Below, one piece after another: positions 32,134-55,104 of a stretch of 64,000 nt of DNA (position 1 is the first letter of the stretch; each line of letters starts with the position of its first letter). The stretch is from Verrucomicrobiia bacterium (GTDB lineage: Bacteria > Verrucomicrobiota > Verrucomicrobiia > Verrucomicrobiales > DEV007). The position numbers were made by a program, and so were the translations under genes. The notes below the pieces were generated by a model, which worked only from the letters and a program-made list of their open reading frames with translations, was not told the origin of the DNA and did not search any database. The stretch is taken from positions 62,001 to 126,000 of the forward strand of contig JAUIAH010000021.1 in the NCBI GenBank assembly GCA_030425385.1, written 5' to 3'.

Positions 32134-32484
32134 ATGAAAAAGAATGAACCCAACGACCTTTTCGAAACGGCGCTGCATTCCCTGAAAGAGCGATCTGGTG
32201 AGGTCGACCTCTCTGGTTTTGAGCACCATGTTTGGTCTGAAATTGCCATTCGTGACGAGCGCGGCTCCTGGTTGCAGTGGCTCCAAGGCGGGCGTTTTCT
32301 CATGCCCGCACCTGCCACCGCGGCGGTGGCCATCGCCGCAATCGGCGCGGGCATCACCCTTGGATTCTCTCAAGCCGAATCCTACGGGAAACAAGCATCT
32401 CTCGACCTGGAGCAGCGCTACGTGGAATCCATTCATCCTGTGATGATGAGCGCCAACCACGTGAGTAATCATACAGAACACTAG
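32134..32484 (+). CDS. Membrane anti-sigma factor, CnrY-like (copy 2)
   Basis: This 116-residue protein parallels the one at 20352. It has a cytoplasmic part with GFEHHVWSEIAIR, one membrane helix (about 60-78, AATAAVAIAAIGAGITLGF-like) and a periplasmic tail rich in His and Asn (MSANHVSNHTEH). It starts an operon with the sensor 8 bases later and then the sigma. The order anti-sigma, sensor, sigma is the CnrYXH order, whereas copy 1 puts the sigma first. Confidence 0.75.
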   Translation: MKKNEPNDLFETALHSLKERSGEVDLSGFEHHVWSEIAIRDERGSWLQWLQGGRFLMPAPATAAVAIAAIGAGITLGFSQAESYGKQASLDLEQRYVESIHPVMMSANHVSNHTEH

Positions 32485-32491
32485 CGAAACC

Positions 32492-32941
32492 ATGCGCAAT
32501 CTCGGCCTTACCGTATTACTCGCCGCGTTGTTGGGGGGCATCGCTTACACGGCGATCTTTTTCTGGCAGAAAAGCCGGATAGATGATCACCACGCACACT
32601 TAACGGCATTTGAGTGGTTTTGTGAAGAGTTCGCAGTCACTGGAGAGCAACGGGCACAGATAGAGGCCTTGCATAAAGAGTATTTCCCCGAGTGCGAAGA
32701 TCACTGCGTACACTACGCCGATACTCAACACACGCTGGCAAAGATCACGAACGATCCGCATCTCGACAATAGCCCCGAGCACAAAGAAGCCGCGAGAGAG
32801 CTCACGCAACTAGAGAAGGAGGCAGACAAGAAATTCATCGATTTCGTCTACAGAATCGCTGGCGAGATGGATACGGCACAGTCGCAGCGATACCTTCAAC
32901 GAATGAAAGGGTGGCTTGATCGAGCGGTCGTGGCCAATTGA
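32492..32941 (+). CDS. Periplasmic metal sensor, CnrX/ZraP-like (copy 2)
   Basis: This 149-residue protein has one membrane helix (about 5-24) and a helical domain with HKEYFPECEDHCVHYADTQ, giving the same Y-x-P-x-C-x3-C pattern as the first copy plus nearby His. The rest is helical. His/Cys residues suggest a divalent or soft metal. It lies between its anti-sigma and sigma genes with 7- and 14-base gaps. Confidence 0.75.
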   Translation: MRNLGLTVLLAALLGGIAYTAIFFWQKSRIDDHHAHLTAFEWFCEEFAVTGEQRAQIEALHKEYFPECEDHCVHYADTQHTLAKITNDPHLDNSPEHKEAARELTQLEKEADKKFIDFVYRIAGEMDTAQSQRYLQRMKGWLDRAVVAN

Positions 32942-32955
32942 TCCGTGAGTAGCCG

Positions 32956-33531
32956 ATGAGGGATCAGCAGCATGATGACGCGCACTGCATGGAGCGCCTC
33001 AGGCAGGGTGACGACCTTGCACTAAATGATCTGATGCGTCGATGGAAGGAGCCTCTGGTGACGTTTTGTTTGCGCTACACAGGCAATGTAACGGATGCGT
33101 GCGAGATTGCTCAAGAGACGTTTGTGAAAGTGCATGGAAGTCGGCATCGTTACCAACAGAGTGCTGCCTTTTCAACTTGGCTGTTCAGCATTGCGGCCAA
33201 CCTCTGTCGCATGCGCACGCGATGGCGCACGCGTCACCCCGAAGTGCTTGAGGCAGATCGCAATCAAGATACAGAACGCGTTCCTGATAGGATCGATTTG
33301 ACTGATCCAAGTGTCGAAAGCGACCGCAACACTCTTGCTGCGGATCTCGAAAGCGCCATCCAGAGCTTACCGCACGACCTCCGTGTAGCTTTCGTGCTCT
33401 TTGAGATTCAAGGGCAATCTTACCGCGACGTTAGCCAGATTCTCAAATGCACGGAGAAAGCGGTGGAACGCCGACTCGCAAAAGCCCGGGAACGACTGCG
33501 ATCAATGCTAGAATTCAAATGGCGGGGCTAG
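32956..33531 (+). CDS. ECF RNA polymerase sigma factor, CnrH-like (copy 2)
   Basis: This 191-residue ECF sigma has region 2 (ACEIAQETFVKVHGSRHRY, FSTWLFSIAANLCRMRTRW) and region 4 (SLPHDLRVAFVLFEIQGQS, then YRDVSQILKCTEKAVERRL). It shares long matches with the copy at 20734, including LREGDDLALN-like and PHDLR stretches. The antiporter and ATPase genes follow. It probably controls the GGGGGG...GGCATT promoters nearby. Confidence 0.88.
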   Translation: MRDQQHDDAHCMERLRQGDDLALNDLMRRWKEPLVTFCLRYTGNVTDACEIAQETFVKVHGSRHRYQQSAAFSTWLFSIAANLCRMRTRWRTRHPEVLEADRNQDTERVPDRIDLTDPSVESDRNTLAADLESAIQSLPHDLRVAFVLFEIQGQSYRDVSQILKCTEKAVERRLAKARERLRSMLEFKWRG

Positions 33532-35105
33532 TGATCCATACTGTTAGCAACTTTCAGAACAGTCTTTCCAGAACCGTGTCTCGTAAGCAGAAGGCCATCG
33601 TTTGGGCAATTATCGCGGTTGTCCTTTCTGTTGCCTGCACCGGAGCCTATGGCCAAGACGCCCCCGCCCAGGCTAGCAAGCTCGGGACTCCGGCGGCGGA
33701 AGTTCTGACGCACGACGCAACCGATCATCACGTGCCGTTTTCCCCGATCCTATTGGAGATAGCTATCATTATAGGTCTGGCAGTAGTGGGTCGTTGGTTG
33801 GCGACCTGTCTTCGCCAGTCGGAAGTGCTCGGTGAGCTTTTGATCGGCGTCATCGTTGGCAACATTGGTTACTGGTTTGGGATTCCGATTTTCGTTCTTG
33901 TCATGAATCTGGGAGATGCAATTCCGCTCTTCAGTGAGGTGTGGTTGACGGGGAAAGCCGTTAGCGAATCAGCTGAACACGTCTTTTCACCCGAGCAGCT
34001 CGAAGCTGGTGGGAGTGCAGAACACCTGTTAGCGATCATGACCGGTCTTGAGGGGCCTCGCCATGTGGCGATGGGTTTCGCACTTTGGATTTTCTCTGAA
34101 CTTGGAGTGATCCTTTTGTTGTTCATGGTTGGTCTCAAATGCGGGGTCGATGACATGCTTAGAGTCGGAACAAGAGCACTGGCGGTAGCCGCTGCGGGAG
34201 TGGTAATACCGTTCGTGGCAGGAATAGTCGTAGCAAAGCTACTTCTCCCCATGGCCGGGACACCAGTTCAGGTTTTCCTGGCCGCTGCTTTGACTGCTAC
34301 CAGCGTTGGAGTGACGGCGCGTGTCTTTCGTGACCTCAACAGGTTGCAAACAGCCGAGGCGAAGGTGATCCTTGGTGCGGCAGTTATTGACGACATTTTG
34401 GGCTTGGTGATTCTCGCAGCCGTCATCGACGTGGCTTCCACGGGCCAGATCGACCCGTTTGCGATCGGCCGGATCGCCCTGCTCTCTTGTACGTTTTTGG
34501 GTGTTCTATTAGTATTTGGGAACCGCTTAGTCCGACTCATAGTCCCACTCGTGAGTTTGCTTGAGAAGCACCATAGCAAACTGCTGTTTCCATTGGCACT
34601 TGCCTTTCTAATGGCCTGGGCTGCAAACTCAATTGAACTTGCACCGATCGTAGGTGCTTTTGCAGCCGGACTGATTCTAACTGAAGATCAGTTCGCCAAG
34701 CAGTCACCTAGTGTGACGATGGAAAACCTCATTGCTCCGCTAGAGCGCATCTTCGCCCCCATCTTCTTCGTCCTCATGGGAATGCAAGTGAACCTCCAGT
34801 CGTACCTTGAGCTCGACACCTTGTGGCTAACCGTGGCCTTCACAGTTGTCGCGATTCTAGGCAAAGTTTTGAGCGGTTTGCTGGCAGGGCGTGGAATTGA
34901 TCGTCTGACGGTGGGGATTGGAATGGTGCCTCGTGGTGAAGTCGGACTTATTTTCGCGAGCATCGGTAAGGCCATGGGAATCATCAGTGGATCCGTTTTT
35001 TCCGCTCTAGTTTCGATGGTCATTCTCACAACGCTCGTCACGCCCTTCGCTTTGAAGTGGTCGTTAGGCCGAGGCTCAAATCAACCACAGCAGCACAATG
35101 ACTGA
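33519..35105 (+). CDS. Cation/proton antiporter (CPA2, KefB-like)
   Basis: From ATG 33519, overlapping the sigma gene end, it has about 528 residues; GTG 33576 would give a shorter protein beginning just before a hydrophobic signal-like segment. There are about 12 membrane segments. Family features are QSEVLGELLIGVIVGNIGYW, ELGVILLLFMVGLKCG, AAVIDDILGLVILAAVID and VPRGEVGLIFASIGKAMG. The extended periplasmic loop near 95-140 is unusual. It should exchange a cation for H+. Its place between the sigma and the metal ATPase suggests metal or pH homeostasis under the same sigma. Confidence 0.85.
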   Translation: MAGLVIHTVSNFQNSLSRTVSRKQKAIVWAIIAVVLSVACTGAYGQDAPAQASKLGTPAAEVLTHDATDHHVPFSPILLEIAIIIGLAVVGRWLATCLRQSEVLGELLIGVIVGNIGYWFGIPIFVLVMNLGDAIPLFSEVWLTGKAVSESAEHVFSPEQLEAGGSAEHLLAIMTGLEGPRHVAMGFALWIFSELGVILLLFMVGLKCGVDDMLRVGTRALAVAAAGVVIPFVAGIVVAKLLLPMAGTPVQVFLAAALTATSVGVTARVFRDLNRLQTAEAKVILGAAVIDDILGLVILAAVIDVASTGQIDPFAIGRIALLSCTFLGVLLVFGNRLVRLIVPLVSLLEKHHSKLLFPLALAFLMAWAANSIELAPIVGAFAAGLILTEDQFAKQSPSVTMENLIAPLERIFAPIFFVLMGMQVNLQSYLELDTLWLTVAFTVVAILGKVLSGLLAGRGIDRLTVGIGMVPRGEVGLIFASIGKAMGIISGSVFSALVSMVILTTLVTPFALKWSLGRGSNQPQQHND

Positions 35106-37533
35106 AAAGACGAAAATTGAAATCCACCTGGTTTTGCCAGAACTAGCAGATGCGCGTGATGCGTGCGTACAGCGCCTCATTGAACTTCTCGAAGCGAAGG
35201 AAGGCATCAGTCGCGCGCATGTGATCGACACGGACAAGAGCGCTCTCGGACAACTTTGTATTCACTACGATCCAAAGTTGATGAGCATCAGTGTTCTGAG
35301 AGAATTCGCAACGCGTGCTGGCACGAGGCTTCAGGAGCGCTTTGGTCACTTGCTGCTCAAAACAGAGCCTATGCACGCCAGACGTGCGCGCTCAATCGCG
35401 AGCCTTGCGGAAAGAATTACCGGTGTGTTAGAAGCCGCGTGCTCACCCGATGGCGTGTTGCGAGTCGAGTTTGATCGAGAGAAGACCGATGAGGATACGC
35501 TGCATCACGCGCTGCACGCCGCGCACGTGCCGATCGTTGAAGCTGACACTCACGAAGGTCACGAGCACAAGCATGGAGGCATTTTCGGGGAGAAGACGGA
35601 ACTCGTTTTCGCAGGTGCTTGCGGAGTCCTGTTGTTGAGTGGAGTGCTTCTAGCGAAGTTCGGAACTCTTCCGCCCTGGGTCACACTAGCGCTCTACATA
35701 GCGGCCTACTTCTTTGGCGGTTGGTTCACCTTGCGTGAGGCGATTGATAATATCCGTCAGCGTCGATTCGAGATCGACTCACTGATGCTGGTCGCCGCCA
35801 TCGGCGCTGCGTCGCTTGGGGAGTGGGCGGAAGGTGCTCTCCTGTTGTTCCTTTTTAGCTTGGGGCATGCACTCGAACACTATGCTATGGGACGCGCGCG
35901 GCGTGCGATCGAGGCTCTGGCAGAACTCGCTCCAGACGTTGCTTTAATCCGGCGCGATGGGAAAATCGTGGAATTGGCGGTCGCGGAATTGCAGCGCGGC
36001 GATATCGCCATCGTGAAGCCGAACGAGCGTATTCCTGCCGATGGGTTTGTAGTGGAAGGCTCGGGCAGCGTCAATCAAGCGCCTATCACCGGAGAGAGTG
36101 TGCCGGTCGACAAAAGGCCAGCGGACGATCCGCAGGAGGCCGCAGCTCAGGGCGACAGTCTAGCTGCTGAACACCGTTTGTTTGCGGGTTCTATCAATCA
36201 AAGTCAGGCGCTGGAAATGCAGGTCACGAAGCTCTCTAGCGAAAGCACCCTGGCGAAGGTCGTCAAGATGGTCAGCGAAGCCGAAACCCGCAAGTCGCCC
36301 ACCCAGCAGTTCACCGACAGATTCGAGCGCATCTTCGTTCCCGTTGTGCTTGGTTTCGTTGGGCTTCTACTTTTCGCTTGGATCGTCGTCGATGAACCGT
36401 TCAGTGCTTCGTTTTATCGGGCGATGGCCGTCCTGGTGGCTGCCAGCCCTTGTGCGCTCGCCATTTCTACACCCAGCGCCGTCCTCAGCGGTATCGCCCG
36501 AGCAGCGCGTGGCGGCGTTCTGATAAAAGGGGGAGCCCCCTTGGAAAGCCTCGGAAGAATTTCTGCCATCGCGTTCGACAAGACGGGCACCCTGACGGAA
36601 GGCAAACCGCGTCTCACCGATGTCGTCCCCTGTGACGGTGTCGCCGAATCCGAGCTACTTGAAATCGCCGTGGTCGTTGAGAGATTCAGCGACCATCCTT
36701 TGGCTGCTGCCGTCGTCCGGGGTGGCGAGGAAAGGCTCGGTGGTTCACCGACTAGCGTAGCCACCAATACTCGGAGCATCACCGGTCGAGGTATCGAAGC
36801 AAGTTTAGATGGCGAGACGATCCACATCGGTAAGGACGATTTGTTTGCCGAAGTCGATGGGCCAGGGCTACCGGAAAAAGTGCGCCAGCAGGTTGAGTTG
36901 TTAGAGACGCAAGGTCGCACGACCATGGTTGTGCGCCGGGGAGAAAGGTACCTTGGTGTGCTCGGTCTGATGGACACCCCGCGCGAAGCTGCGAAACGCA
37001 TGATCGGCCAACTTCGCGCTCTTGGCGTACGCCGCATGATCATGATCTCGGGCGACAATCAGCAAGTTGCTGATGCCGTCGCTCGCGAAGTTGGTATTGA
37101 CGAAGCCAGAGGCGACTTGCTTCCAGATGATAAAGTCACTGCGATTAAGGAGATCCGCGCACAGGAGGATATTGCGATGGTCGGGGACGGCGTTAACGAC
37201 GCCCCTGCCATGGCAAATGCCACTGTAGGAATCGCGATGGGCGCAGCAGGCTCAGACGTGGCTCTCGAAACCGCCGATATCGCGCTCATGGCCGACGACT
37301 TGGCGCATCTGCCGTTTGCTGTGGGCTTGAGCAGGAAGACCAGTCAGATTATCAAACAGAACCTATGGTTCAGCCTTGGGATGGTCGCTTTGCTCGTCCC
37401 GGCTACCGTATTTGGTCTCAACATGGGGATTGCCGTATTATTTCATGAGGGATCAACCCTTTTAGTGGTCGTCAATGCACTCCGGCTCCTCGCCTACGGC
37501 GGGATCCAGAGCTCTGGGCAACAGCCGGTCTGA
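35098..37533 (+). CDS. Heavy-metal P-type ATPase (P1B-4-like)
   Basis: This 811-residue ATPase overlaps the antiporter gene by 8 bases. It has a phosphorylation site DKTGT (Asp near 494), the GDGVNDAPA hinge and a TM6 motif SPC (about residues 448-450) instead of CPC. TM8 has HEGST near 783. SPC plus HEG[S/G]T marks subgroup P1B-4, linked to Co, Zn, Cd or Fe. Two ferredoxin-like N-terminal domains have lost their Cys-x2-Cys; a His-rich HEGHEHKHGG (about 151-160) precedes TM1. It should pump metal out of the cytoplasm. Confidence 0.92.
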   Translation: MTEKTKIEIHLVLPELADARDACVQRLIELLEAKEGISRAHVIDTDKSALGQLCIHYDPKLMSISVLREFATRAGTRLQERFGHLLLKTEPMHARRARSIASLAERITGVLEAACSPDGVLRVEFDREKTDEDTLHHALHAAHVPIVEADTHEGHEHKHGGIFGEKTELVFAGACGVLLLSGVLLAKFGTLPPWVTLALYIAAYFFGGWFTLREAIDNIRQRRFEIDSLMLVAAIGAASLGEWAEGALLLFLFSLGHALEHYAMGRARRAIEALAELAPDVALIRRDGKIVELAVAELQRGDIAIVKPNERIPADGFVVEGSGSVNQAPITGESVPVDKRPADDPQEAAAQGDSLAAEHRLFAGSINQSQALEMQVTKLSSESTLAKVVKMVSEAETRKSPTQQFTDRFERIFVPVVLGFVGLLLFAWIVVDEPFSASFYRAMAVLVAASPCALAISTPSAVLSGIARAARGGVLIKGGAPLESLGRISAIAFDKTGTLTEGKPRLTDVVPCDGVAESELLEIAVVVERFSDHPLAAAVVRGGEERLGGSPTSVATNTRSITGRGIEASLDGETIHIGKDDLFAEVDGPGLPEKVRQQVELLETQGRTTMVVRRGERYLGVLGLMDTPREAAKRMIGQLRALGVRRMIMISGDNQQVADAVAREVGIDEARGDLLPDDKVTAIKEIRAQEDIAMVGDGVNDAPAMANATVGIAMGAAGSDVALETADIALMADDLAHLPFAVGLSRKTSQIIKQNLWFSLGMVALLVPATVFGLNMGIAVLFHEGSTLLVVVNALRLLAYGGIQSSGQQPV

Positions 37534-38201: not shown

Positions 38202-39536
38202 GTGAACTTCGTTTCGATCTCGATGACTACCATACACAGGCGACTTACGCTCACCTATTTGCTGTTCTTGCTTCTCAGATTAACCGCAACGGGACAGGAC
38301 GAATCAATTCTAACTTTCAGTCGTGAGGCTGCAATTGAGAGTGCTGTTCGTAACAACCCTGAACTATCGGTCGCCGCGCTTGAGATCGAACGCGCGAAGT
38401 CAAGGCTTCGCTGGGCCGGACGTCTTGAGAATCCTGAACTCGAACTTTCAAGTTCAACGGATCAATTCGGGCTCAATGAAGACGAAGGGGAGATTGAGAT
38501 CGCGTTCAGCCAGCGATTCCCGGTCACTTCTCGGTTGCGAGACGAGAAGACGGCTAGAAAGCACGATGTCGAACTTGCGGAGATCGAGTTTGCCATAAGG
38601 CAGCGCCAACTTGCCTATGAGGTGGACAAGGCTGCTCTCATGCTTCTGGCGGCCGAACGAAAGGTACAACTTCAGAGCAAGTTAATCGAGCTTAACAGAG
38701 AGATCGTCACGTTTATGACAAGCAGGGTCAAGCTAGGGGAAATCTCTGCACTCGATGCTACCCAGGCTTCCCTCAACGGTCAGCTGCTTGATCAGGAGCT
38801 TGGAACGGCGCGGGCCGCAATTACGAGTGCGCGCTCACGGCTACAGCAACTGCTAGGGGTTGACCCCGATAGCTCCGTCAGTATTTCTGATTCGCTAGTG
38901 CTTTCGCAGGATCCTCCTGATTCTTCGATAGATTTAAACGCCGTCCTGCAGAACCGCCCCGACTATGCCTCATTGCTAACGTTAAGTGATCTTGGCAGGG
39001 CTCAGCTCGGCCTAGCCATGGCACAACGTTGGGATGATATTGCCGTAAAAATCTTCGTCACACGAGAACTGGCACAGGACGCCCCGGAAGGCCTCGAACG
39101 CAATACCTTCGCAGGGATCGGACTGTCGATCCCGCTTCCACTTCGTAACCGGAATGAGCAGGCCATCGAAGAAGCAAAGATCGAGATCGAGAAAGCACGA
39201 CGCGCTCGCGGGGCCAAGATGTTTGAAATCCACAGTGAACTTCGGGCGGCACTGAAGGCTCGTGAAGCAGCTCATGAGCTTTCCTTAAGTGCTGGAGGAG
39301 AGGCTCTGGAACTGGCTAAAAAGAACTTTATTGATTTCAAGGCGGCGCAGCAGACTGGTCAAGCGAGTCTGCTTCAAGTGCAGCAGGCGCAGACTCAGCT
39401 GCTTCAGTTAGAGAATTCAGCGTTAGAGTTTCAGACGAACTATCACATCACTGAAACGGAAGTCCGATTTATCGCAGGCACGTATCCGCTCCCTCAACCG
39501 TCTGCATACACTAACGACAATTATAACAAGAAATAG
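38202..39536 (+). CDS. czcC: TolC-family outer-membrane efflux protein (CzcC-like)
   Basis: This 444-residue protein (GTG 38202; ATG 38223 is an alternative that begins right at the signal peptide) has a signal sequence ending near LTATGQ. NPELSVAALEIERAKSRLRW and RLENPELELSSS are typical of CzcC proteins. Two long helical repeats follow. It lies 7 bases after the membrane protein gene and 2 bases before the adaptor. Confidence 0.88.
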   Translation: MNFVSISMTTIHRRLTLTYLLFLLLRLTATGQDESILTFSREAAIESAVRNNPELSVAALEIERAKSRLRWAGRLENPELELSSSTDQFGLNEDEGEIEIAFSQRFPVTSRLRDEKTARKHDVELAEIEFAIRQRQLAYEVDKAALMLLAAERKVQLQSKLIELNREIVTFMTSRVKLGEISALDATQASLNGQLLDQELGTARAAITSARSRLQQLLGVDPDSSVSISDSLVLSQDPPDSSIDLNAVLQNRPDYASLLTLSDLGRAQLGLAMAQRWDDIAVKIFVTRELAQDAPEGLERNTFAGIGLSIPLPLRNRNEQAIEEAKIEIEKARRARGAKMFEIHSELRAALKAREAAHELSLSAGGEALELAKKNFIDFKAAQQTGQASLLQVQQAQTQLLQLENSALEFQTNYHITETEVRFIAGTYPLPQPSAYTNDNYNKK

Positions 39537-39538
39537 AA

Positions 39539-40681
39539 ATGATGCGAATGCTCTATGCTGGCTTGACTGCCATTAGCACTACCTTATGCCTGACGAGTGG
39601 TTTGGCGGAAGAAGCCATCGACCCAGGCCGGGCCGCCAACACCATCATCCTCGACGAGAATGGTGTAAAGAACCTGCGCATTGAGACGGTGGCCGTCGAA
39701 GAGCAGGACTTCGAATCGACGGTCTTTGCCATCGGTCGGCTCGAAGAAACGCCAAACAGCCGCTCGGTTCTCTCATCACGCATCTCTGGGCGAGCGATCA
39801 AAGTGAACGCCTTCCTCGGAGACCATGTGACCAAGGGCGACATTCTGGTCGAAGTAGAGAGCCGCCAACCTGGCAGCCCCCCTCCTGTCATTCCCCTCAA
39901 AGCTGCCGAGACCGGCCTCGTGATCCAATCACATGTGAAAGTCGGCCAGCCGATCGAGCCGGATGCGGAATTGTTAGACATATCGGATCGATCAGTGATG
40001 TGGGCCGTCGCCAAGATCCCAGAAAAAGAAGCAGCCGACGTGAAGATTGGCTCTCGCGCGCGCATCCGCATCCCCGCCATCGGGGGTGAGCCCATCGAAG
40101 CGACTATCATACGCTTCGGCATCGCCGCCGACAGACAAGCGGGTACCGTCGAAGGTATCTTCGAAATTCCGAACCCCGGAGGGGAACTCCAGCCCGGCAT
40201 GCGAGCTGAGTTCTCTATCATTGTGAGCAGTCGTGAAGACGTGATGGCCGTCCCGCGCACCGCTCTACAAGGAGACCCCTCTAAGCGGGTCGTGTTTGTG
40301 AAGGACTTCGATCTCCCCAATGCCTTCGTCAAAGCCCCCGTACAGGTCGGCGAACAGAACGATGGATTCATTGAGATCACTGCCGGCCTCTTCCCTGGTG
40401 ATGAAGTCGTCACGCAAGGCTCTTACTCCCTTGGATTCGCTGGCGGCGGAAGCGTATCGCTCAAAGAAGCGCTCGACGCTGCCCACGGCCACGAGCACAA
40501 CGAGGACGGCTCCGAGCTTACGCCAGCGCAGAAGGCGGCAAAGGAAGCTGAGAAGGCAGGGCCTGCTGGCCAAGGGGGCGGCGCGTCCAGCGGCATCCTC
40601 AAGATCTACGCACTTGTCATCACGCTGCTCTTTATCGTGGTCGCCCAACTCTACTGGAGAAATCGTAAAGCAACGAGCTAA
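39539..40681 (+). CDS. czcB: RND periplasmic adaptor (CzcB-like) with C-terminal membrane helix
   Basis: This 380-residue protein has a signal peptide (cleaved near SGLAEE), then barrel-sandwich parts (VKVNAFLGDHVTKGDILVEV-like, with SPPPVIPLKAAETG) and beta-barrel parts (ELQPGMRAEFSII, then AVPRTALQGDPSK). The alpha-hairpin between the lipoyl halves is almost absent. A His-containing linker (HGHEHNEDG, about 316-324) leads to a Lys/Ala-rich stretch and a membrane helix (about 355-373) ending in a basic tail. A C-terminal anchor is unusual for adaptors. Confidence 0.82.
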   Translation: MMRMLYAGLTAISTTLCLTSGLAEEAIDPGRAANTIILDENGVKNLRIETVAVEEQDFESTVFAIGRLEETPNSRSVLSSRISGRAIKVNAFLGDHVTKGDILVEVESRQPGSPPPVIPLKAAETGLVIQSHVKVGQPIEPDAELLDISDRSVMWAVAKIPEKEAADVKIGSRARIRIPAIGGEPIEATIIRFGIAADRQAGTVEGIFEIPNPGGELQPGMRAEFSIIVSSREDVMAVPRTALQGDPSKRVVFVKDFDLPNAFVKAPVQVGEQNDGFIEITAGLFPGDEVVTQGSYSLGFAGGGSVSLKEALDAAHGHEHNEDGSELTPAQKAAKEAEKAGPAGQGGGASSGILKIYALVITLLFIVVAQLYWRNRKATS

Positions 40682-40691
40682 CACTTAGACC

Positions 40692-43600
40692 ATGCTCAAC
40701 AAACTTATCAGACTCAGTTTGGCGCAGCGCGCCCTTGTGGTCGCTGTCTCACTCGTTCTACTCGTCCTCGGTATTAAGAAGACGCTAGAGCTTCCCGTCG
40801 ATGTCCTCCCAGACCTCACGAAGCCTACGGTCACCATCCTGACAGAAGCCTCAGGCTACGCCCCCGAGGAGGTCGAAACCCTAGTGACAATCCCCCTGGA
40901 AAACGCTCTGATGGGGGTGACTGGCGTCGAGCGTCTACGATCAACAAACGACATCTCACTTTCGCTAATCTTCGTCGAGTTTGAGTGGGGAACAGACATC
41001 TACCAAGCACGTCAATTCGTCCAAGAGCGTCTCACTGGTGCGGTCGAAGTATTGCCTGAAGGCGTTACGCCATACATGACGCCCGTGGCTTCGCTCATGG
41101 GCGACATCATGATGGTCGGCGTGCGTGACCCTAGCGGAGAGACAAAACCACGCGACCTGCGCGTGCTGGCAGATTGGGTGATCGGTCGCCGCTTCCAGTC
41201 GGTTCCGGGCATTGCCGAGGTGCTCTCGATGGGCGGTGGGGTGAAGCAGATCCAAGTGCAACCAGATCCGAACAATATGTTCGCCATGGGCGTAACGTTT
41301 GAGCAGCTTCGCGAGGCCGCGTCCAAGGCGGTCAGGAATACCACAGGCGGATTCCTCACAGAACAGGATCAGGAGATCATGGTGCGCAATCTCGCCATGA
41401 CGACCGACCTAGATGCCATCGGTGACACAGTGGTCGTCCACGAAAATGACCGCGCCATCCGCATCAAGGATGTGGCCACCGTAAGGTGGGACATCGAACC
41501 CATGCGCGGTGATGCTGGGATGGGCACCAAGCTCAATCCAGACGGAACCCACGTCGAAGGCGCCGTCACCGGCGACGAGGGCGTGATCATCAACATCCGA
41601 AAATCTCCTGGCTTCGACACCATTGCGCTCACCGATAAGCTCGAATCCATCATCGATGAGTTGAAGACGACACTTCCAGAAGGCGTGGAACTCGTCACGC
41701 TCTACCGACAACGCGATTTCATCGATCTCTCGATTGGCAACCTCGAAGAGGCCCTACGCGACGGTGCGATCATGGTCTCGATCGTCCTCTTCCTATTTCT
41801 GTTCAACTTTCGAGTCACCTTCATCACGCTCACGGCGATTCCACTATCTCTCGCGATCACAATATTGGTCTTCGATTTCCTCAATCTGAGCGTGAATTCC
41901 ATGACCCTTGGAGGGCTAGCCGTCGCCATTGGCATGGTGGTGGACGACGCCATCGTCGACGTGGAGAACGTGTTCCGGCGCTTGCGGGAAAACGCCGCCC
42001 GGGAGACGCCCGAGTCGAAGTTAGAGGTGATCGCGCTCGCGTCGAGCGAGGTGCGCTCCTCCATCCTATACGCAACGATCCTCATCATCCTCGTGTTCAT
42101 GCCGCTGCTCGCGTTGAGCGGCGTCGAAGGGCGATTGTTCACACCCATCGCCATCGCCACCATCGTCAGCATGGGTGCCTCTTTCGTCGTCTCTCTAACA
42201 GTCATCCCGGTACTCAGCTCCTACCTGCTCAACCCAAAGCCAGGAAAAGAACATGGGGACAGCTTCCTAGTTCGCTGGATCAAGGGTGCATTTCGCCTGA
42301 CATGGTTAAAGCTAGCACTCGCGCAACCGTTCCTCATCTTCGCCCTCACCGGGATTCTCCTCTTCATCAGTTACGAAGCCTACACGAAGATGGGCGGCAA
42401 TTTCCTCCCGCCGTTCCGCGAACCGACCGCGGTGGTCGCGATGACCACTGCCCCTGGAACCTCACTCAAGACCACCACAGAACTCTCGAAAACAGCCCAA
42501 GATCTTCTCCTCCAAATTCCTGGAGTTGAAACCGTTGGCTACCGTGTCGGTCGTGCCGAGCGCGGCGACCATGTTGTCCCCGTATCTACAGTGGAGTTCG
42601 ATGTCGAGTTCAATGAGGAAGGAGAAGCCAACAGGAAGGAAGTCTTAGAACAGGTCCGTAATACGATGCGATCCATCCCAGGCACCTTCAGCGCCCTCAG
42701 CGGCCCCTTGGCAGACCGGATTGGCCACATGCTGAGCGGAGTCTCCGCTAAGGTCGCCGTGAAAATCTATGGCCCAGATCTCAAGGAACTGCGTCGCCTC
42801 GGCGAAGAAGTCGCAGGCATCGCTCGTGCCATTCCAGGTCTCGAAGAGGCGCGAACGGAGCAGCAGGCTCCGATCCCCCAGCTCAGGATCGAAGTGGACC
42901 GCAAACGCGCCCTCGCCTACGGCGTCACACCGGGGGAACTCAACGATGATCTCGCCGCTCTCATGGGGGGCGAGGCCGTCGCCGAAGTCTACGAAGGGCA
43001 AAGAGTCTACGATCTAGTCGTCCGACTCCCGCTTGAATGGCGGGAGAATCCCCAGCGTTTGGAAAACATCTACATCGACACGGAGAGCGGCCAGCGTATC
43101 CCTTTAAGCTATGTGGCCGAGCTACGTCAGGCGACTGGCCCGAACACCATCTTGCGTGAAAACACGCTAAGGAGATTCGTCGTCTCAATTAACCCGACCA
43201 CCAGCGACCTCAACGCCGTCGTCGAACAGTTGCAGCAAGACGTGGCAGCGAAACTCAAGCTCCCTAAGGGATACTCGCTTTCGTTCGAAGGCGAGTACGA
43301 GGCCCAACAGAAAGCTACCCGGACGATCGCGATCACCTCTGCCATCATCCTCGTGGTCATCGTATTCCTCCTCTACAGCTACTTTCAAAGCTTCAGCTTC
43401 GTCCTGCTAGTCCTAACGAATATTCCAATCTCCCTCATCGGCGCCGTGCTCTACACACGTTTCACGCTCGACAACATTAGCATCGCAACGCTTGTCGGCT
43501 TCATCGCGATTACTGGAATCGCGGCGCGCAATAATATCATGATGATTTCGCACTATCTTCATCTCATGGCGCACGAGGGGGAGAAATTTACACGCAAGAT

Positions 43601-43856
43601 GGTGGAGAGAGGCACGCTAGAACGCCTAGTTCCTGTTCTCATGACAGCCATTTCAGCGGGCATCGCATTGATACCACTCATCCTTGCCGCCGACGAACCA
43701 GGTAAGGAGATCCTGAATCCGGTGGCCATCGTCATCATTGGCGGGCTCGTTAGCTCGACCTTGCTAGGCCTCGCAATCACTCCGGCCATCTTCTTTAGCT
43801 TCTGCCGCAAAGCTGCCGAGAAAGCGGTCGCTGCCGGGGCTCCAGCTTGCGGATAG
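40692..43856 (+). CDS. Heavy-metal RND efflux pump (CzcA/CusA family)
   Basis: This 1054-residue pump has the family start (NKLIRLSLAQRALVVAVSLV) and PVDVLPDLTKPTVTILTEAS. TM4 reads GGLAVAIGMVVDDAIVDVEN, closer to the branch with G-x-VVDDAIVDVEN than to the CzcA DFGLIIDG pattern. The region DRIGHMLSGVSAKVAVKIYG is also typical of that branch. Its metal is therefore uncertain; nickel, cobalt or zinc are possible. It follows the adaptor by 10 bases and precedes the His-rich binding protein. Confidence 0.92.
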   Translation: MLNKLIRLSLAQRALVVAVSLVLLVLGIKKTLELPVDVLPDLTKPTVTILTEASGYAPEEVETLVTIPLENALMGVTGVERLRSTNDISLSLIFVEFEWGTDIYQARQFVQERLTGAVEVLPEGVTPYMTPVASLMGDIMMVGVRDPSGETKPRDLRVLADWVIGRRFQSVPGIAEVLSMGGGVKQIQVQPDPNNMFAMGVTFEQLREAASKAVRNTTGGFLTEQDQEIMVRNLAMTTDLDAIGDTVVVHENDRAIRIKDVATVRWDIEPMRGDAGMGTKLNPDGTHVEGAVTGDEGVIINIRKSPGFDTIALTDKLESIIDELKTTLPEGVELVTLYRQRDFIDLSIGNLEEALRDGAIMVSIVLFLFLFNFRVTFITLTAIPLSLAITILVFDFLNLSVNSMTLGGLAVAIGMVVDDAIVDVENVFRRLRENAARETPESKLEVIALASSEVRSSILYATILIILVFMPLLALSGVEGRLFTPIAIATIVSMGASFVVSLTVIPVLSSYLLNPKPGKEHGDSFLVRWIKGAFRLTWLKLALAQPFLIFALTGILLFISYEAYTKMGGNFLPPFREPTAVVAMTTAPGTSLKTTTELSKTAQDLLLQIPGVETVGYRVGRAERGDHVVPVSTVEFDVEFNEEGEANRKEVLEQVRNTMRSIPGTFSALSGPLADRIGHMLSGVSAKVAVKIYGPDLKELRRLGEEVAGIARAIPGLEEARTEQQAPIPQLRIEVDRKRALAYGVTPGELNDDLAALMGGEAVAEVYEGQRVYDLVVRLPLEWRENPQRLENIYIDTESGQRIPLSYVAELRQATGPNTILRENTLRRFVVSINPTTSDLNAVVEQLQQDVAAKLKLPKGYSLSFEGEYEAQQKATRTIAITSAIILVVIVFLLYSYFQSFSFVLLVLTNIPISLIGAVLYTRFTLDNISIATLVGFIAITGIAARNNIMMISHYLHLMAHEGEKFTRKMVERGTLERLVPVLMTAISAGIALIPLILAADEPGKEILNPVAIVIIGGLVSSTLLGLAITPAIFFSFCRKAAEKAVAAGAPACG

Positions 43857-43917: not shown

Positions 43918-44430
43918 ATGAAACTAACCACCCGTATCCTAACGATCTTCTCCGTTGCGGCCTACGCCGTAATGCCAGTTCTAGCAGACGAAGATAAACA
44001 CGACGACCATGACGATCACGGCCACGAGAAAGTCGTTGCCGGGCCGAATGGCGGGCGCGTACTCACCGACGTCGAACCGCACCTCGAATTCCTCGTCAAC
44101 GAAGACCGCACGGTCACGATCACCGCGCTCGACGACCACAACAAGGCCGCCAAGATTGCCGGTCAGACGGTGAAGATGATTGCTGGTAAGCGCAGCAGCC
44201 CTACGAATCTCACCTTCTCAGTGAAAGACGGCAAACTCGTCTCCAGCGGGAAACTCCCAGCTGGCAACGACTTCCCCGTCGTCGTCCAAATCAAGCCTAA
44301 AAAAGGTGCAAAAACAGTGAACGCCAAGTTCAACCTAAACCTGAAAGACTGCCCGACCTGCAAGTATAAGGAGTACGCCTGCACTTGCGCCCACGGGGAC
44401 GACGATGACCACAAAGACCACGACCACTAA
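43918..44430 (+). CDS. Periplasmic His-rich metal-binding protein (family of three, copy 2)
   Basis: This 170-residue protein has a signal peptide (cleaved near PVLAD). A short His/Asp cluster, HDDHDDHGHE, is followed by AGPNGGRVLTDVEPHLEFLV and a C-terminal CPTCKYKEYACTCAHGDDDD with a final HKDHDH. It resembles the proteins at 24420 and 46034. It starts 61 bases after the RND pump gene and ends before a strong hairpin. Likely a periplasmic metal buffer or chaperone for the pump. Confidence 0.75.
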   Translation: MKLTTRILTIFSVAAYAVMPVLADEDKHDDHDDHGHEKVVAGPNGGRVLTDVEPHLEFLVNEDRTVTITALDDHNKAAKIAGQTVKMIAGKRSSPTNLTFSVKDGKLVSSGKLPAGNDFPVVVQIKPKKGAKTVNAKFNLNLKDCPTCKYKEYACTCAHGDDDDHKDHDH

Positions 44431-44470
44431 GACGAAAAGGATAAGTAACACCCACTAGCGTTATTTCGAG

Positions 44471-44501
44471 GCCGTCGCCCCTCCCATCCGGGGGCGACGG
44501 C
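44471..44501 (+). terminator. 11-bp hairpin after the third RND operon
   Basis: GCCGTCGCCCC (44471-44481) and GGGGCGACGGC (44491-44501) pair perfectly around a 9-base loop, followed by TCTTCCCGTTTA. It separates the RND operon from the TnpB-like gene, which begins 34 bases later. Confidence 0.7.
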
Positions 44502-44535
44502 TCTTCCCGTTTAACGCCACCGCTACGGACGTCGG

Positions 44536-45774
44536 ATGGCCATACCTATGAAATGCGGAACATGCAGAGCTGAAAATCGCCTTGTCGATAAACACGGTAA
44601 GGAACGTACCCCCCGTGGTTGGAAGCTATTTCAGGGGCAGAGGTATTGTGCTGCTTGTTGGGAAAAGCAATTCGTCCTCCGCTCCCTGGTGCTCGCCGTG
44701 AGCAAGCCTCTCGACCTCTCCTGGGATGAATTTACTGATCGATTGGAGACCGCCTGGCGGCAGACCACGCAACTATCGAACGCGATTATCACCAAGCTGG
44801 CTCTGCTAGAACCCGTGAGAACGCCGGAGATGACCAAGATGCCCGCAGCCCCGAGTCCCTACCTCTATCCGTGGGCATGCGATGAGTTTCCCGACCTCGA
44901 CGTCCAAAGTATCAACTCACTCATCCATACCGTACAACGAACGTACAATCGCTTTCGCCTGGAGGTCTTCTGGCGCCGGTCCCGCTCGCTCCCACAGTAC
45001 CGATACCCGGCGCCTGCCCCTTTCCCTAGCCAGTCTTCCAAACTTGAGTGGCTCTCTGATTCTCAGAAAGTCCCTGTGGTGACCCTACGCCTCGGCGGCG
45101 AGCGGACGAGACTTCAGCTCCAGTCGAAACACCAGAAGAACTACAAGCTATCGCTCTCTCAGATCGTCGCAGGCGAAGCTAAGCTCTGTGAAGGGGCGAT
45201 CTACCGAAAAGTCAGTTTTGGAACACACCGACCCGGAGTCGTTTCTCGGGCTCCGGGAGGAGGCCAACGCTTCCACTCGCAGGTGTTTGTGAAACTCACC
45301 GCTTGGCTCCCGCGCCAAACCGTTTCCGGTCCAGCCAAGCGGCGCCACCTCCGTGTGAGCACCGGCAATGATTTCTTCCTGTCGGCCTCCGTTTCCGGCG
45401 AACCTCAATGGACACTCCACGCCGACCACGTCAGGCGCTGGATCAATTCCCACGCCGAACGCCTCAGACGCCTATCGTCCGACCAAGACTTCGCGGCCAG
45501 GCAATCGCGCAGACATCGCCTCCCGATCAATGAGTTCCGCTCCAAGCTCACCGGCAAGCACCACCGCCGGATGGCAAACTTCCTCAAGCAAACCTGCGCC
45601 GAAGTATCCGACTACGCGGTGCGCAACGGTTGTCGGAAGATCATCTGGCAGCGCGAGAATACGGGATTCTTGCGTTCGTTCCCGTGGTTTGAGCTAGAGA
45701 CTTCACTAGAGCACCGGGCGGAAGAACTCGGAATCCTTTTCGAACGGGCTACTTCGGGGAGCCCGTCAACCTAA
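44536..45774 (+). CDS. TnpB/Cas12-like RuvC-fold protein, apparently nuclease-dead
   Basis: This 412-residue protein is hard to assign, but its C-terminal half follows the TnpB/Cas12 RuvC layout. HLRVSTGNDFFLSAS (about 270-284) sits where RuvC-I has D-x-G. A long helical part with HHRRMANFLKQTCAEVSDYA (about 342-361) leads to CRKIIWQRENTGF, where RuvC-II has Glu. FPWFELETSLEHRAEELGI (from 382) matches the L-x-x-K-A-E-x-x-G region. The catalytic Asp and Glu appear replaced and the protein ends before the zinc finger and RuvC-III. An N-terminal zinc knuckle (Cys7, Cys10, Cys38, Cys41) replaces it. No partner transposase is present. It lies between two paralogous His-rich metal genes. It resembles domesticated TnpB-type repressors, but this is inferred. 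Confidence 0.5.
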   Translation: MAIPMKCGTCRAENRLVDKHGKERTPRGWKLFQGQRYCAACWEKQFVLRSLVLAVSKPLDLSWDEFTDRLETAWRQTTQLSNAIITKLALLEPVRTPEMTKMPAAPSPYLYPWACDEFPDLDVQSINSLIHTVQRTYNRFRLEVFWRRSRSLPQYRYPAPAPFPSQSSKLEWLSDSQKVPVVTLRLGGERTRLQLQSKHQKNYKLSLSQIVAGEAKLCEGAIYRKVSFGTHRPGVVSRAPGGGQRFHSQVFVKLTAWLPRQTVSGPAKRRHLRVSTGNDFFLSASVSGEPQWTLHADHVRRWINSHAERLRRLSSDQDFAARQSRRHRLPINEFRSKLTGKHHRRMANFLKQTCAEVSDYAVRNGCRKIIWQRENTGFLRSFPWFELETSLEHRAEELGILFERATSGSPST

Positions 45775-46033
45775 CCATGCAACCAAACTTAGAACAACCT
45801 CGATACCTACCGGCCATCACCAGGCCGAGCGCGATAACCCCTCCTGACGCTGGTCGCTTGAGGGTCTCGCGGAACGCGCCCCAAGCGGCGGGGATACGGC
45901 ACCCTGTGCCAGCGCCCCTGCGCCACCTGATGAAAAGAAGGACCGGTGTGAGTGGAACAAGAATGTAACTAGGCGCATCCAACCAGATCGGAACGCCTCA
46001 CTATAAAACCAATACCCAACTAGAATTAACACA
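45775..46033 (+). other. Non-coding stretch after the TnpB-like gene (possible guide RNA)
   Basis: This gap has no convincing gene: the short plus frame from 45777 and the minus frames are Pro/Arg-rich and unrelated to known families. It contains small hairpins, for example GGCAC/GTGCC (45899-45911), and GC-rich segments, then becomes AT-rich before the next gene. TnpB and related dead proteins use an RNA encoded at or just past their 3' end, so this is where one would expect a guide RNA. The promoter of the downstream His-rich lipoprotein must also be here. Confidence 0.4.
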
Positions 46034-46612
46034 ATGAAACTAACCAAATTGCCACTAATCGCTATCGCTCTAGCGGGCACCTACTATCTCTCTTCCTGCG
46101 GCGGAGACCAGCACGACGACCACGATGGTCATGACTACGACGAGCATGCCGAACACTCCGAGGATGATGACCACGAGGGTCACGATCATGACGACCATGA
46201 AGGACACGATCACGATGACCATGAAGGACATGACCACAGCGACATCGTTGCAGGGCCGAACGGTGGCAGGGTCCTAACAAGCGTCGAACCCCATGCGGAA
46301 TTCTTCGTCACTGACGACCGCAAGGTGCAGATCGCGTTCGTCGACGATGACCTGAAACCTGTTGCGGCAGGCGACCAGAATGTCTCAGTGATTGCGGGAG
46401 ACCGCTCGAATCCGACCAGTCTCTCCTTTGCCAAGAGCGGCAATGTCCTCATCTCTGACAAGGTCCTTCCCGACGGCAACGACTTCCCGGTCATCGTCCA
46501 GATCAAGACGGACGCCTCTGCCGAGACGGTTCGCGAGAAGTTCAATCTGAATCTCGCCGACTGCCCGACCTGCGACTACAAGGAGTACGCCTGCACCTGC
46601 GCCCACGATTAG
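46034..46612 (+). CDS. His/Asp-rich metal-binding lipoprotein (family of three, copy 3)
   Basis: This 192-residue protein has a lipoprotein signal (YYLSSC, Cys22). Residues 26-70 are mostly His, Asp and Glu, including three tandem DDHEGHDH units. The core AGPNGGRVLTSVEPHAEFFV and the end CPTCDYKEYACTCAHD match the protein at 43918. It would buffer metal at the membrane surface. It lies after the TnpB-like gene and its non-coding tail. Confidence 0.75.
   Translation: MKLTKLPLIAIALAGTYYLSSCGGDQHDDHDGHDYDEHAEHSEDDDHEGHDHDDHEGHDHDDHEGHDHSDIVAGPNGGRVLTSVEPHAEFFVTDDRKVQIAFVDDDLKPVAAGDQNVSVIAGDRSNPTSLSFAKSGNVLISDKVLPDGNDFPVIVQIKTDASAETVREKFNLNLADCPTCDYKEYACTCAHD
46166..46237 (+). repeat. Three tandem 24-bp units encoding DDHEGHDH
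   Basis: Three consecutive in-frame 24-base units (46166-46189, 46190-46213, 46214-46237) encode DDHEGHDH. They differ mainly at third codon positions. The number of units may vary between strains, which would tune metal capacity. Confidence 0.85.
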
Positions 46613-46844
46613 CGTCATCAATGACTGCTGGAATATTTTAGTGAGAATATCTTTCATCGTGTCCGTTAGCCGGGGCCGGGGACAACCCGGGCCTCGGCGC
46701 GTTGGACGCGTTTCTTGGGGGCGGCGAGGCAGCTGGGCAGGTCTGCTTTCGGGTTCAGCCCCGAAACCGGTGGAGATTTCGACGTTAACTATCGCGCGGG
46801 CAACCTCCGAAGACGCCGATATCTCTGACCCGTCTCGCCGATGT

Positions 46845-47216
46845 GCCCTGCTTCCTCGATTCAAGCTCGAGAAAGAACTAGGGCAAGGAAGACTAGGTGC
46901 CGTCTATGGTGCGGTTGATAGAAAACTGGATCGTATCGTGGCGATGAAGGTGATGTCTGATGATCCCCACATTCCCGGGTTCTCGGAACGCTTCGAACGG
47001 GAAGCTTCGACGATGGCAAAACGGAACCATCCTAACATCGTTTCGATTTATGAATCTGGCTGAGTAGATGATTATCTCGTGATGGAGCGGATGGAAGGCG
47101 GCTGAGTAGATTCGCTCAAAGGAAAAACTGTCGATTCAGAGCGCGATGAGTGTGCTTGGGCAAGTCTGCGATGCGTTGGATTACGTTCACTCGCTTGGCA
47201 TGCATCGGGATGTGAC
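46845..47216 (+). pseudogene. Decayed Ser/Thr kinase fragment
   Basis: The frame reads FKLEKELGQGRLGAVYGAVD and KLDRIVAMKVM, then FSERFEREASTMAKRNHPNI, colinear with residues 70-130 of the kinase at 8205. After VSIYESG two TGA stops appear (at 47061 and about 47103), each in a copy of GGCTGAGTAGAT, with codons lost around them. Later DNA still matches the segment up to MHRDV, then similarity ends at about 47216. The zinc ribbon, catalytic core end and sensor part are gone. Nothing recognisable fills 46613-46844 except GC-rich hairpins. Confidence 0.85.
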
Positions 47217-50847: not shown

Positions 50848-51588
50848 GTGAGAACAGGATTCGAAGCCGACATGTTTCCCTCCACCCACTGGAGCGCCAT
50901 TAGCCAAGCGAGAGGTAGTGATAGTGCCACCGCTAAAGCTGCCCTTGATCGACTCTGTGTTACCTACTGGAAGCCGATTTGCTCCTTCATTCGCCACCTT
51001 GGCCAAACCGAGGAAGACGCCGAAGATCTGACCCAGGATTTCTTTCGCCAGCAAATGATCCGGCGAAACCTGTTTCTGGAAGCACGGAAAGGGAAAGGCT
51101 CTCTCAGAAGCTACATCTGCGTTGCGGTGAAGCGACTAGTGTATGACGCCAACAAGAAGCGAGGAAGACTCAAGCGCGGCGGCGATCAATCCTTTGTGTC
51201 GTTCGAAGCGGCTGAAGAATCCGACGACGGCCTGCTTGATACTTCATCCAGTCCTGACCTCTACTTCGACCGGCAATGGGCGATTGCAACGATTGGCCGA
51301 GTGGTGACGGAATTCGAGGCCGATCTCGTTGCACGGGGCAAACAAGAGCTGTTCGATGAGCTGCGCCCCTACCTCATGGGCCCGGAAACAGACACGCCTC
51401 AACAGGAAGTCGCCCAACGGCTCGGAATGGAACCCAACGCCCTTTCCAACCTGCTCCAGCGATGGCGCTCCAAACTCGGCAAAGCCTTCCGGGCCGAAGT
51501 CGCTGCCACGATTCCCAGCGAAAACCCGCGCGAAATCGAAGCAGAGATCATCTATTTGAAGGGGCTGTTCGATTCAAACACAAGGTGA
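50848..51588 (+). CDS. ECF-type sigma factor (kinase-partnered PVC type)
   Basis: This 246-residue sigma has FPSTHWSAISQARGSDS near the start, which is typical of the large PVC ECF groups. Region 2 is EEDAEDLTQDFFRQQMIR with SLRSYICVAVKRLVYD. A helix-turn-helix follows near 185-215 (QQEVAQRLGMEPNALSNLLQ). In PVC genomes this type usually neighbours a Ser/Thr kinase with a Cys ribbon. Here the kinase is at 8205 and a dead copy is at 46845. It lies inside the transfer operon and may recognise the 39-bp motif. The next 216 bases hold no gene. Confidence 0.8.
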   Translation: MRTGFEADMFPSTHWSAISQARGSDSATAKAALDRLCVTYWKPICSFIRHLGQTEEDAEDLTQDFFRQQMIRRNLFLEARKGKGSLRSYICVAVKRLVYDANKKRGRLKRGGDQSFVSFEAAEESDDGLLDTSSSPDLYFDRQWAIATIGRVVTEFEADLVARGKQELFDELRPYLMGPETDTPQQEVAQRLGMEPNALSNLLQRWRSKLGKAFRAEVAATIPSENPREIEAEIIYLKGLFDSNTR

Positions 51589-54800: not shown

Positions 54801-55104
54801 GACCGTGCTCGCCGATGGCCAATCCGCAATGATAGAAGTCAACTTCACCAAAGACCGTCATGCCGCACGCACGCCTCGCATATTTTCAGCCTCTGACACT
54901 GAGGCTAGATTCTTGAAACGAGCGCGGAAGCTTATGCTTGACGCCCACGGCGCTTGGCAGTGGGCCTACTTCAACCGCAATTTGCGGATCTATCGCGGAC
55001 GAAAGATTTACATAATGAAGCCGCTGCACCGCTTTCACTGGACGCAAAGCAACGCGCTTACCGATGCCAGTCAGATTATCGCGGAAACGCTTTCTGCTAG
55101 TTGA
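51805..55104 (+). CDS. N6-adenine DNA methyltransferase, large (type IIG/BREX-like)
   Basis: This 1099-residue protein has the SAM motif VLDPSCGSGSFLV (near 361) preceded by GAYYTPLPLVNFML, and the catalytic NPPW near 500. This order is that of class I gamma adenine methylases. The N-terminal 330 residues resemble the helical and nuclease-like regions of type IIG enzymes, but no clear PD-(D/E)XK was found there. The C-terminal half should bind DNA. The next gene, 3 bases away, encodes a candidate nuclease, so the pair is probably a defence system carried in the transfer operon. Confidence 0.8.
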   Translation: MPLEDLLASLGYSGSPSYLKRGDGVFETEMGYGHIFRRAKDPEGEGSPRWQAEGIYGIRESADANGRFIPLVYVCTAHDEKAAAELHRLIWNQDVAPYIIVYTTRGVAVYSGFNYAAKAKDLDGKGIIAALTDFNNAKEILRRFHRREIDEGGLWQHPHLRVDQSRRVYHRLLASLRELDKALQTDGLPKEVSHALIGKYVYLRYLRDRGILSDDRLAVWGLKADDVFGNKAKKVSLSTLAKNLDDWLNGEVFPFPKSKRLPTASEIQAVAGAFRGDEHSSDGTQMHLDFEAYNFAFIPIETLSLVYEQFLHTPDPNAKKDGKTKKTKGREEGAYYTPLPLVNFMLASLERQKPLQRGMKVLDPSCGSGSFLVQAYRLLIEKTFPVSKPRPKPGELRQLLEDSIFGCDVDSDACQVTQLSLLLTLLDYVDPPDLTGQMHAFKLPTLCETTDAKKLAAGHTPNILHHNFFGAEPLLSASVRGKQGANADWPTQGFDWIVGNPPWKTISPKKLGANDKPVWKWMQNNAKARPVGRNQAAQAFVWEAPKYLKARGECTLLIPAMGLFEEPSELFRKGFFADLKVHEVANFSNLAEVLFDGRARVPAASISYRNRLTDVVSEPDDCITVFSPFVVNQEQTRPLTEGKRGKVWSISLNASEVRVIEEREAATGHGLPWKLAMWGSPWDERLLARLEKKWPSLNSLEAKWKPSLKKFVQSDESQILCVSEGLQIREENGDDVEPVEEASGKWAIDMKVMNRWRCLFTFPADSLIKLDRESYYALKGRVRRPLTVSRPPHVIVSAARNFAIYSENLIIVPPRQIGIVSRSNDKDLLKALSLFLSSDFVFYHQFFRCTELGIKRDRATLEALRRMPVPLTSLTRTELKKWSLLYSKLAKCKPRKLEGGKKKSELRQGDMFETDSEDSKLDALLTQLNEMTADALGLSNEERGLIHDLVQVRYALNDGKRGDAAMRAPEPKELRAYARSLKNELDDFAGDAAGRAHQVTVLADGQSAMIEVNFTKDRHAARTPRIFSASDTEARFLKRARKLMLDAHGAWQWAYFNRNLRIYRGRKIYIMKPLHRFHWTQSNALTDASQIIAETLSAS

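Follow-up and report, generated by a model that had tools for sequence, protein, structure and literature searches.

A cleavage-dead Cas12f-like protein and a putative guide RNA in a metal-resistance island of Verrucomicrobiia

Genes and features at the locus

We analysed 64,000 nucleotides of a Verrucomicrobiia genome (the window: GenBank assembly GCA_030425385.1, contig JAUIAH010000021.1, positions 62,001 to 126,000), in which a gene that we call dcas12f is predicted to encode a nuclease-dead, C-terminally truncated protein of the Cas12f family. The gene lies between two paralogous genes for His-rich proteins, hisrich1 and hisrich2 (61% identity over 121 amino acids), and is followed after 35 bp by a conserved noncoding block, hereafter the RNA block (Table 1). 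A preliminary description of the window had pictured a nuclease-dead protein of the TnpB/Cas12 superfamily in a metal-resistance island, with paralogous His-rich flanks and no adjoining transposase. That picture was borne out, with no transposase among the open reading frames neighbouring dcas12f and with the protein placed closer to Cas12f than to TnpB. TnpA and repeated element ends, the marks of an IS605/TnpB transposon, were not found at the locus, and the dcas12f gene and the RNA block are each single-copy in the genome.

The only homologue found, 69% identical, is encoded by a metagenome-assembled Verrucomicrobiia genome from another genus of the same family (HKST-UBA30). Both genomes have the gene order cusA, hisrich1, dcas12f, RNA block, hisrich2. 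The conserved start of dcas12f is probably the ATG at 44548, because the homologue begins there.

Table 1. Coordinates of dcas12f, its putative RNA and the neighbouring metal-resistance genes (window positions).
Feature	Position	Strand	Basis or remark
Nuclease-dead, C-terminally truncated Cas12f-like protein (dcas12f), 412 aa / 412 codons	44536..45774	+	Cas12f hidden Markov model (HMM), HHalign, AlphaFold2 (AF2)/Foldseek, ratio of nonsynonymous to synonymous substitution (dN/dS) far below 1
N-terminal Cys4 motif (C7, C10, C38, C41)	44554..44658	+	All four Cys kept in homologue
Ser275 codon, RuvC-I catalytic Asp position (Gln in homologue)	45358..45360	+	Alignments with intact and dead Cas12f
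Gln372 codon, RuvC-II catalytic Glu position (Glu in homologue)	45649..45651	+	HMMER alignments
Putative guide-RNA scaffold (RNA block), noncoding, 161 nt, single copy, ending GAATGTAAC	45809..45969	+	Conserved in homologous locus
Putative guide TAGGCGCATCCAACCAGATC	45970..45989	+	Directly 3' of scaffold; first 16 nt 11/16 identical to homologue's
His-rich metal-binding-like secreted protein 1 (hisrich1)	43918..44430	+	Syntenic in homologous locus
His-rich protein 2 (hisrich2), paralogue of hisrich1	46034..46612	+	Start 44 bp past putative guide; syntenic in homologous locus
RND heavy-metal efflux operon (outer membrane factor, CzcB/IhpB-type adaptor, CusA/CzcA pump)	38202..43856	+	NCBIfam TIGR00914 3.9e-225 and others
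Zn/Cd/Pb-type P-type ATPase	35098..37533	+	TIGR01525 3.4e-177
CnrYXH-like metal-sensing cassette: putative anti-sigma factor, Metal_resist sensor, extracytoplasmic function (ECF) sigma factor	32134..33531	+	PF13801, sigma-70 domains, PDB CnrH 1.5e-8
ECF-type sigma factor after virB4	50848..51588	+	Sigma70_r2 3.1e-4

A diverged member of the Cas12f family

Profile and fold comparisons identify the product of dcas12f as a diverged Cas12f, with homology in sequence and in predicted fold across both the WED/REC and the RuvC parts. The protein had no match in Pfam and matched TnpB in NCBIfam at E 0.022, and among PADLOC models it matched Cas12f (7.6e-11) and Cas12u3 (4.3e-9); the homologue matched PADLOC Cas12f at 1.2e-14. 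A scan of the gene's own genome with the Cas12f family model at a cut-off of E 1e-6 did not list dcas12f, and we preferred the direct protein scan. Among solved structures, phmmer placed OsCas12f (9nzq, 6e-5) and a natural dCas12f (9n9c, 0.0018) at the top. When the two-sequence family was aligned by HHalign with 9n9c, 9nzq and AsCas12f, residues 116-401 matched with 95.9% probability (E 5.7e-9); against five TnpB-like proteins, 28 columns matched and no more.

An AF2 model built from 20 sequences reached a predicted local distance difference test score (pLDDT) of 78.5 and a predicted template modelling score of 0.57; an earlier model from two sequences was unusable (pLDDT 40.5). Foldseek gave AsCas12f as the best match (1.6e-19), and VIA-align scores ranged from Z 19 to 24 across AsCas12f, 9n9c and OsCas12f (24.3 for AsCas12f over residues 47-412; 20 for dCas12f 9n9m/9n9c). 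Whole-chain root-mean-square deviations were large (8-13 Å), and the WED/REC lobe alone superposed on that of OsCas12f at 2.0 Å over 165 residues. The alignment behind the model included Cas12f relatives, so the fold match partly overlaps with the homology as evidence. The profile and structure checks that the preliminary description had proposed both returned Cas12f. Cas12f models outscore TnpB, and a maximum-likelihood tree, which separates dcas12f, with its very long branch, from three TnpB outgroups and puts it with Cas12f, likewise points to the protein being nearer Cas12f. Taken with synteny and purifying selection, the HMM and HHalign scores put the assignment beyond chance.

Loss of the nuclease parts

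The RuvC-I motif V/I-D-x-G reads V-S275-T-G in dcas12f and I-Q-T-G in the homologue. At RuvC-II the register is ambiguous, as a shift in MAFFT would place E374 rather than Q372 at the catalytic Glu position. Both proteins lack the zinc finger and RuvC-III, their C termini lying about 10 residues past the last RuvC helix, the one that precedes the zinc finger. The natural dCas12f 9n9c (365 residues) has the identical end point and has lost the RuvC-I Asp too. The preliminary description had read the replaced Asp and Glu, the early end and an added N-terminal Cys4 directly from the letters; alignment agrees on each, with the reservation about RuvC-II. An active Cas12f nuclease has an intact RuvC D-E-D triad and a zinc finger; with S275, Q372 and no such C terminus, the dcas12f protein is predicted to be unable to cut DNA, its catalytic site being gone. 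Neither the Cas12f model nor the structure matches, which start near residue 47, extend to the Cys4 motif.

Identity between dcas12f and its homologue is 76% in the WED/REC half, which would bind RNA and DNA, and 57% in the RuvC remnant, the pattern expected of a protein predicted to have kept binding and lost cutting.

A conserved noncoding block in the position of a guide RNA

Between the two genomes the RNA block is 93.2% identical, against 29-40% for the adjoining noncoding DNA and 64-67% for dcas12f, hisrich1 and hisrich2; the best 161-nt window outside it reaches 78%. A 1-nt indel within the block disrupts reading frames on either strand, so it is not a small protein. Its 3' end is GAATG(T/A)AAC across the two genomes, and divergence begins beyond, with 69% identity over the next 16 nt and 40% over the 48 nt after those. 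Cas12f repeats often end in GAATGNAAC; about two occurrences of this motif alone are expected by chance in the window, and the arrays examined beside phage Cas12f genes do not end in it. The length of the block fits the guide RNAs (gRNAs) of one Cas12f group (129-156 nt; PMC13186708), and the guide RNAs of TldR also lie downstream of their gene (PMC13418256). No CRISPR-like repeat array was found in 44431-46640. The block, which falls within the interval of 45600-46050 where the preliminary description had placed an RNA element, is best read as a putative built-in guide-RNA scaffold with the guide following; the guide-like sequence of the homologue is TGGCAGCAACCGACCAATAA.

Alternatively, the block could act in cis as a structured leader of hisrich2, such as a metal riboswitch or a shared promoter or untranslated-region element, with the dead Cas12f using another RNA or none. 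It terminates just upstream of hisrich2, matches no family in Rfam and has no guide target that we could find (see below), as a leader might. Yet the paralogue hisrich1 has no such leader, conservation stops at an end resembling that of Cas12f repeats, and the location of the block, immediately 3' of the Cas gene, is that of TldR guide RNAs. We regard a leader as rather unlikely.

A proposed RNA-guided, non-cutting DNA binder

The explanation that we favour, with a probability of roughly two in three, is that dcas12f encodes a domesticated, cleavage-dead Cas12f that works with one guide RNA of its own, travels on a conjugative metal-resistance element and serves as an RNA-guided DNA binder that does not cut. 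The protein would retain the RNA- and DNA-binding WED/REC lobe and a RuvC remnant devoid of a catalytic site; the RNA that it binds would be transcribed from the sequence immediately 3' of the gene (scaffold 45809-45969, guide starting at 45970), and together they would attach to DNA that matches the guide, leaving it uncut. Most probably the complex would serve to regulate transcription, either obstructing RNA polymerase in the manner of TldR or bringing it in as dCas12f-sigmaE systems do. A fuller version, which we put forward only tentatively and think somewhat doubtful, is an independently arisen RNA-guided transcription factor derived from a dead Cas12f and spread by the conjugative element; its targets would be genes for metal resistance or a metal-response gene of the host, and processing of the transcript between dcas12f and a paralogue of the regulated gene would release the guide RNA.

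To our knowledge, the natural RNA-guided transcription factors known so far are dead TnpB (TldR) and dead Cas12f linked to sigma factors. Both kinds are familiar, and what is new here is the conserved 161-nt noncoding block beside dcas12f. If the proposal is right, the dead Cas12f described here, which branches separately, comes from another phylum, sits on a conjugative metal island and has a built-in RNA that is very highly conserved, would suggest that programmable non-cutting regulators arise repeatedly and travel with resistance cargo. The dcas12f locus is small, at about 1.5 kb.

Comparison with known systems

The anatomy of the locus appears to resemble both TldR and dCas12f-sigmaE systems; its protein, a predicted member of the Cas12f family, would be neither a Cas12f nuclease nor part of a CRISPR system. 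With TldR it shares an inactive RuvC in an open frame under selection, a gRNA-like element 3' of the gene (putative in dcas12f) and a place on a mobile element beside a paralogue pair, with no transposase. It differs in its probable ancestry, Cas12f rather than TnpB, in the loss of the whole zinc finger and RuvC-III, and in the failure to find a guide target. Active Cas12f proteins (AsCas12f, OsCas12f) have the same order of WED/REC and RuvC core and gRNAs of similar size (again putative in dcas12f), but they possess an intact RuvC triad and a zinc finger and use CRISPR arrays.

The structures 9n9c and 9n9m ('dCas12f-gRNA complex') are, we take it, from the Bacteroidota dCas12f-sigmaE RNA-guided transcription systems. 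They match dcas12f in Cas12f fold, in the missing RuvC-I Asp and in an end point before the zinc finger and RuvC-III. Unlike them, dcas12f (about 15% identical) stands on a separate deep branch, carries the N-terminal Cys4, lies in a metal-resistance cassette and has no adjoining sigma gene. In the maximum-likelihood tree, dcas12f and its homologue form a long separate branch apart from the clade of dead proteins that unites 9n9c with phage homologues (83/83 support), and 13% of bootstrap trees showed one origin of the dead state. Independent inactivation of the dcas12f lineage is therefore favoured by the tree.

The phage members of that clade come from eight viral contigs that encode Cas12f proteins of 377-404 aa without the RuvC-I Asp, the zinc finger or RuvC-III. 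They share with dcas12f the lost Asp and the identical truncation and differ in clustering with 9n9c and in the CRISPR-like arrays (~36-nt repeats, 29-30-nt spacers) that directly adjoin several of the genes; these phage proteins appear to keep arrays of their own.

As a sub-case of the favoured explanation, the dead Cas12f might activate transcription by bringing one of the island's ECF sigma factors, the CnrH-like one or that encoded after virB4, to sites set by the guide, as in Bacteroidota dCas12f-sigmaE. The island has ECF sigma genes in each genome, and in the homologous locus the one that likewise comes after virB4 lies 165 bp from hisrich2; dcas12f also has the truncation and Asp loss in common with the 9n9c protein. 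Against such recruitment, no sigma gene adjoins dcas12f in the window, the tree sets dcas12f outside the 9n9c and phage dead clade, and neither genome yielded a guide target; we judge it unlikely. The sigma factor at 50848..51588, whose gene is the nearest to dcas12f, was considered as a partner and not adopted: that gene comes after virB4 in each of the two genomes and so appears to belong to the transfer module.

Search for guide targets

Both genomes (95.5% and ~91% complete) were searched at three stringencies, with 20-mers, 16-mers and 12-mers allowing 3, 2 and 1 mismatches respectively, using reversed patterns as controls. The outcome weighs against the favoured explanation. Neither genome, the metal island included, yielded a target for the guide, and counts stayed near those of the controls; control of the metal operon by a repressor, as the preliminary description had suggested, gained no support from these searches. 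Matches of 12-mers were modestly above controls (54 vs 43, and 110 vs 84 in the second genome), as were 16-mer matches in the second genome (14 vs 6), but few candidate 12-mer sites were intergenic, and among the matches listed, which took in all but about 10 of the 110 in the second genome, no pair of 12-mer sites tested for homologous flanks proved in register or orthologous. The gene's own contig held no good target site, and alternative guide starts gave nothing convincing on the two genomes' own contigs. Further points on the same side are the fold of the RNA block, no more stable than that of shuffled sequences, the absence of compensatory base changes between two sequences that are highly similar, and the presence of the system in just two of the genomes searched. 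Guides of dead Cas12f and TldR-like systems can be short. Because of this, because the genomes are incomplete and because the target may sit on another replicon, we treat the absent target as a missing link, not a refutation.

It seems quite improbable that the dead Cas12f instead interferes with other mobile elements by binding plasmid or phage DNA without cutting. Its carriage on a conjugative element and the phage contigs that pair truncated dead Cas12f with CRISPR-like arrays would suit such a role; dcas12f, by contrast, has a single fixed guide-like sequence and no array, and the only exact 18-nt viral match lies on an unrelated phage contig, within a baseplate-like gene, and is at about chance expectation. 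A 26-nt plasmid match covered 14% of the query. Viral 20-mer matches to the scaffold end lay on phage contigs without Cas12f and were taken as chance.

Distribution and selection

Searches of plasmids, phages and viral contigs and of 84,980 species genomes gave no relatives beyond the one homologue, and 388 phylum-wide genomes gave no other full-length relative. Between the two genomes, synonymous sites of dcas12f are saturated (proportion of synonymous differences 0.85; nonsynonymous 0.20), and with dN/dS far below 1 the protein is under strong purifying selection. A decaying, functionless TnpB/Cas12f relic, as the lost catalytic residues and C terminus and the occurrence in two genomes might suggest, is very improbable given that the open frame and synteny have persisted while synonymous sites became saturated and few amino acids changed, and that no 161-nt stretch of the neighbouring genes is as conserved as the RNA block.

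The metal-resistance island and its neighbours

The island evidently belongs to a conjugative element: the window also encodes a MobF relaxase and a VirB-type transfer system with its VirB4-type ATPase, and these lie with the metal genes on one 127-kb contig. The CnrYXH-like cassette, whose PF13801 match (1.4e-4) is below the gathering score, is syntenic in the homologous locus. Between the two loci the P-type ATPase gene (35098-37533 vs 11756-14194 of the homologous locus) has a synonymous divergence of ~0.4 and its neighbours are saturated, which suggests recent exchange or recombination.

Directly after hisrich2, positions 46641-47063 hold a fragment of a Ser/Thr kinase gene that resembles the intact kinase at 8205-9938, a sign of duplication or rearrangement at the cassette edge. 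The second RND pump gene is followed by a gene (24420-24872) for a third, shorter protein whose C terminus bears a similar EYACTC signature; pump and signature protein may form a recurring module. Positions 51805-55104 encode a 1099-aa Eco57I/MmeI-type adenine methyltransferase-like protein, probably a restriction-modification enzyme of the mobile element.
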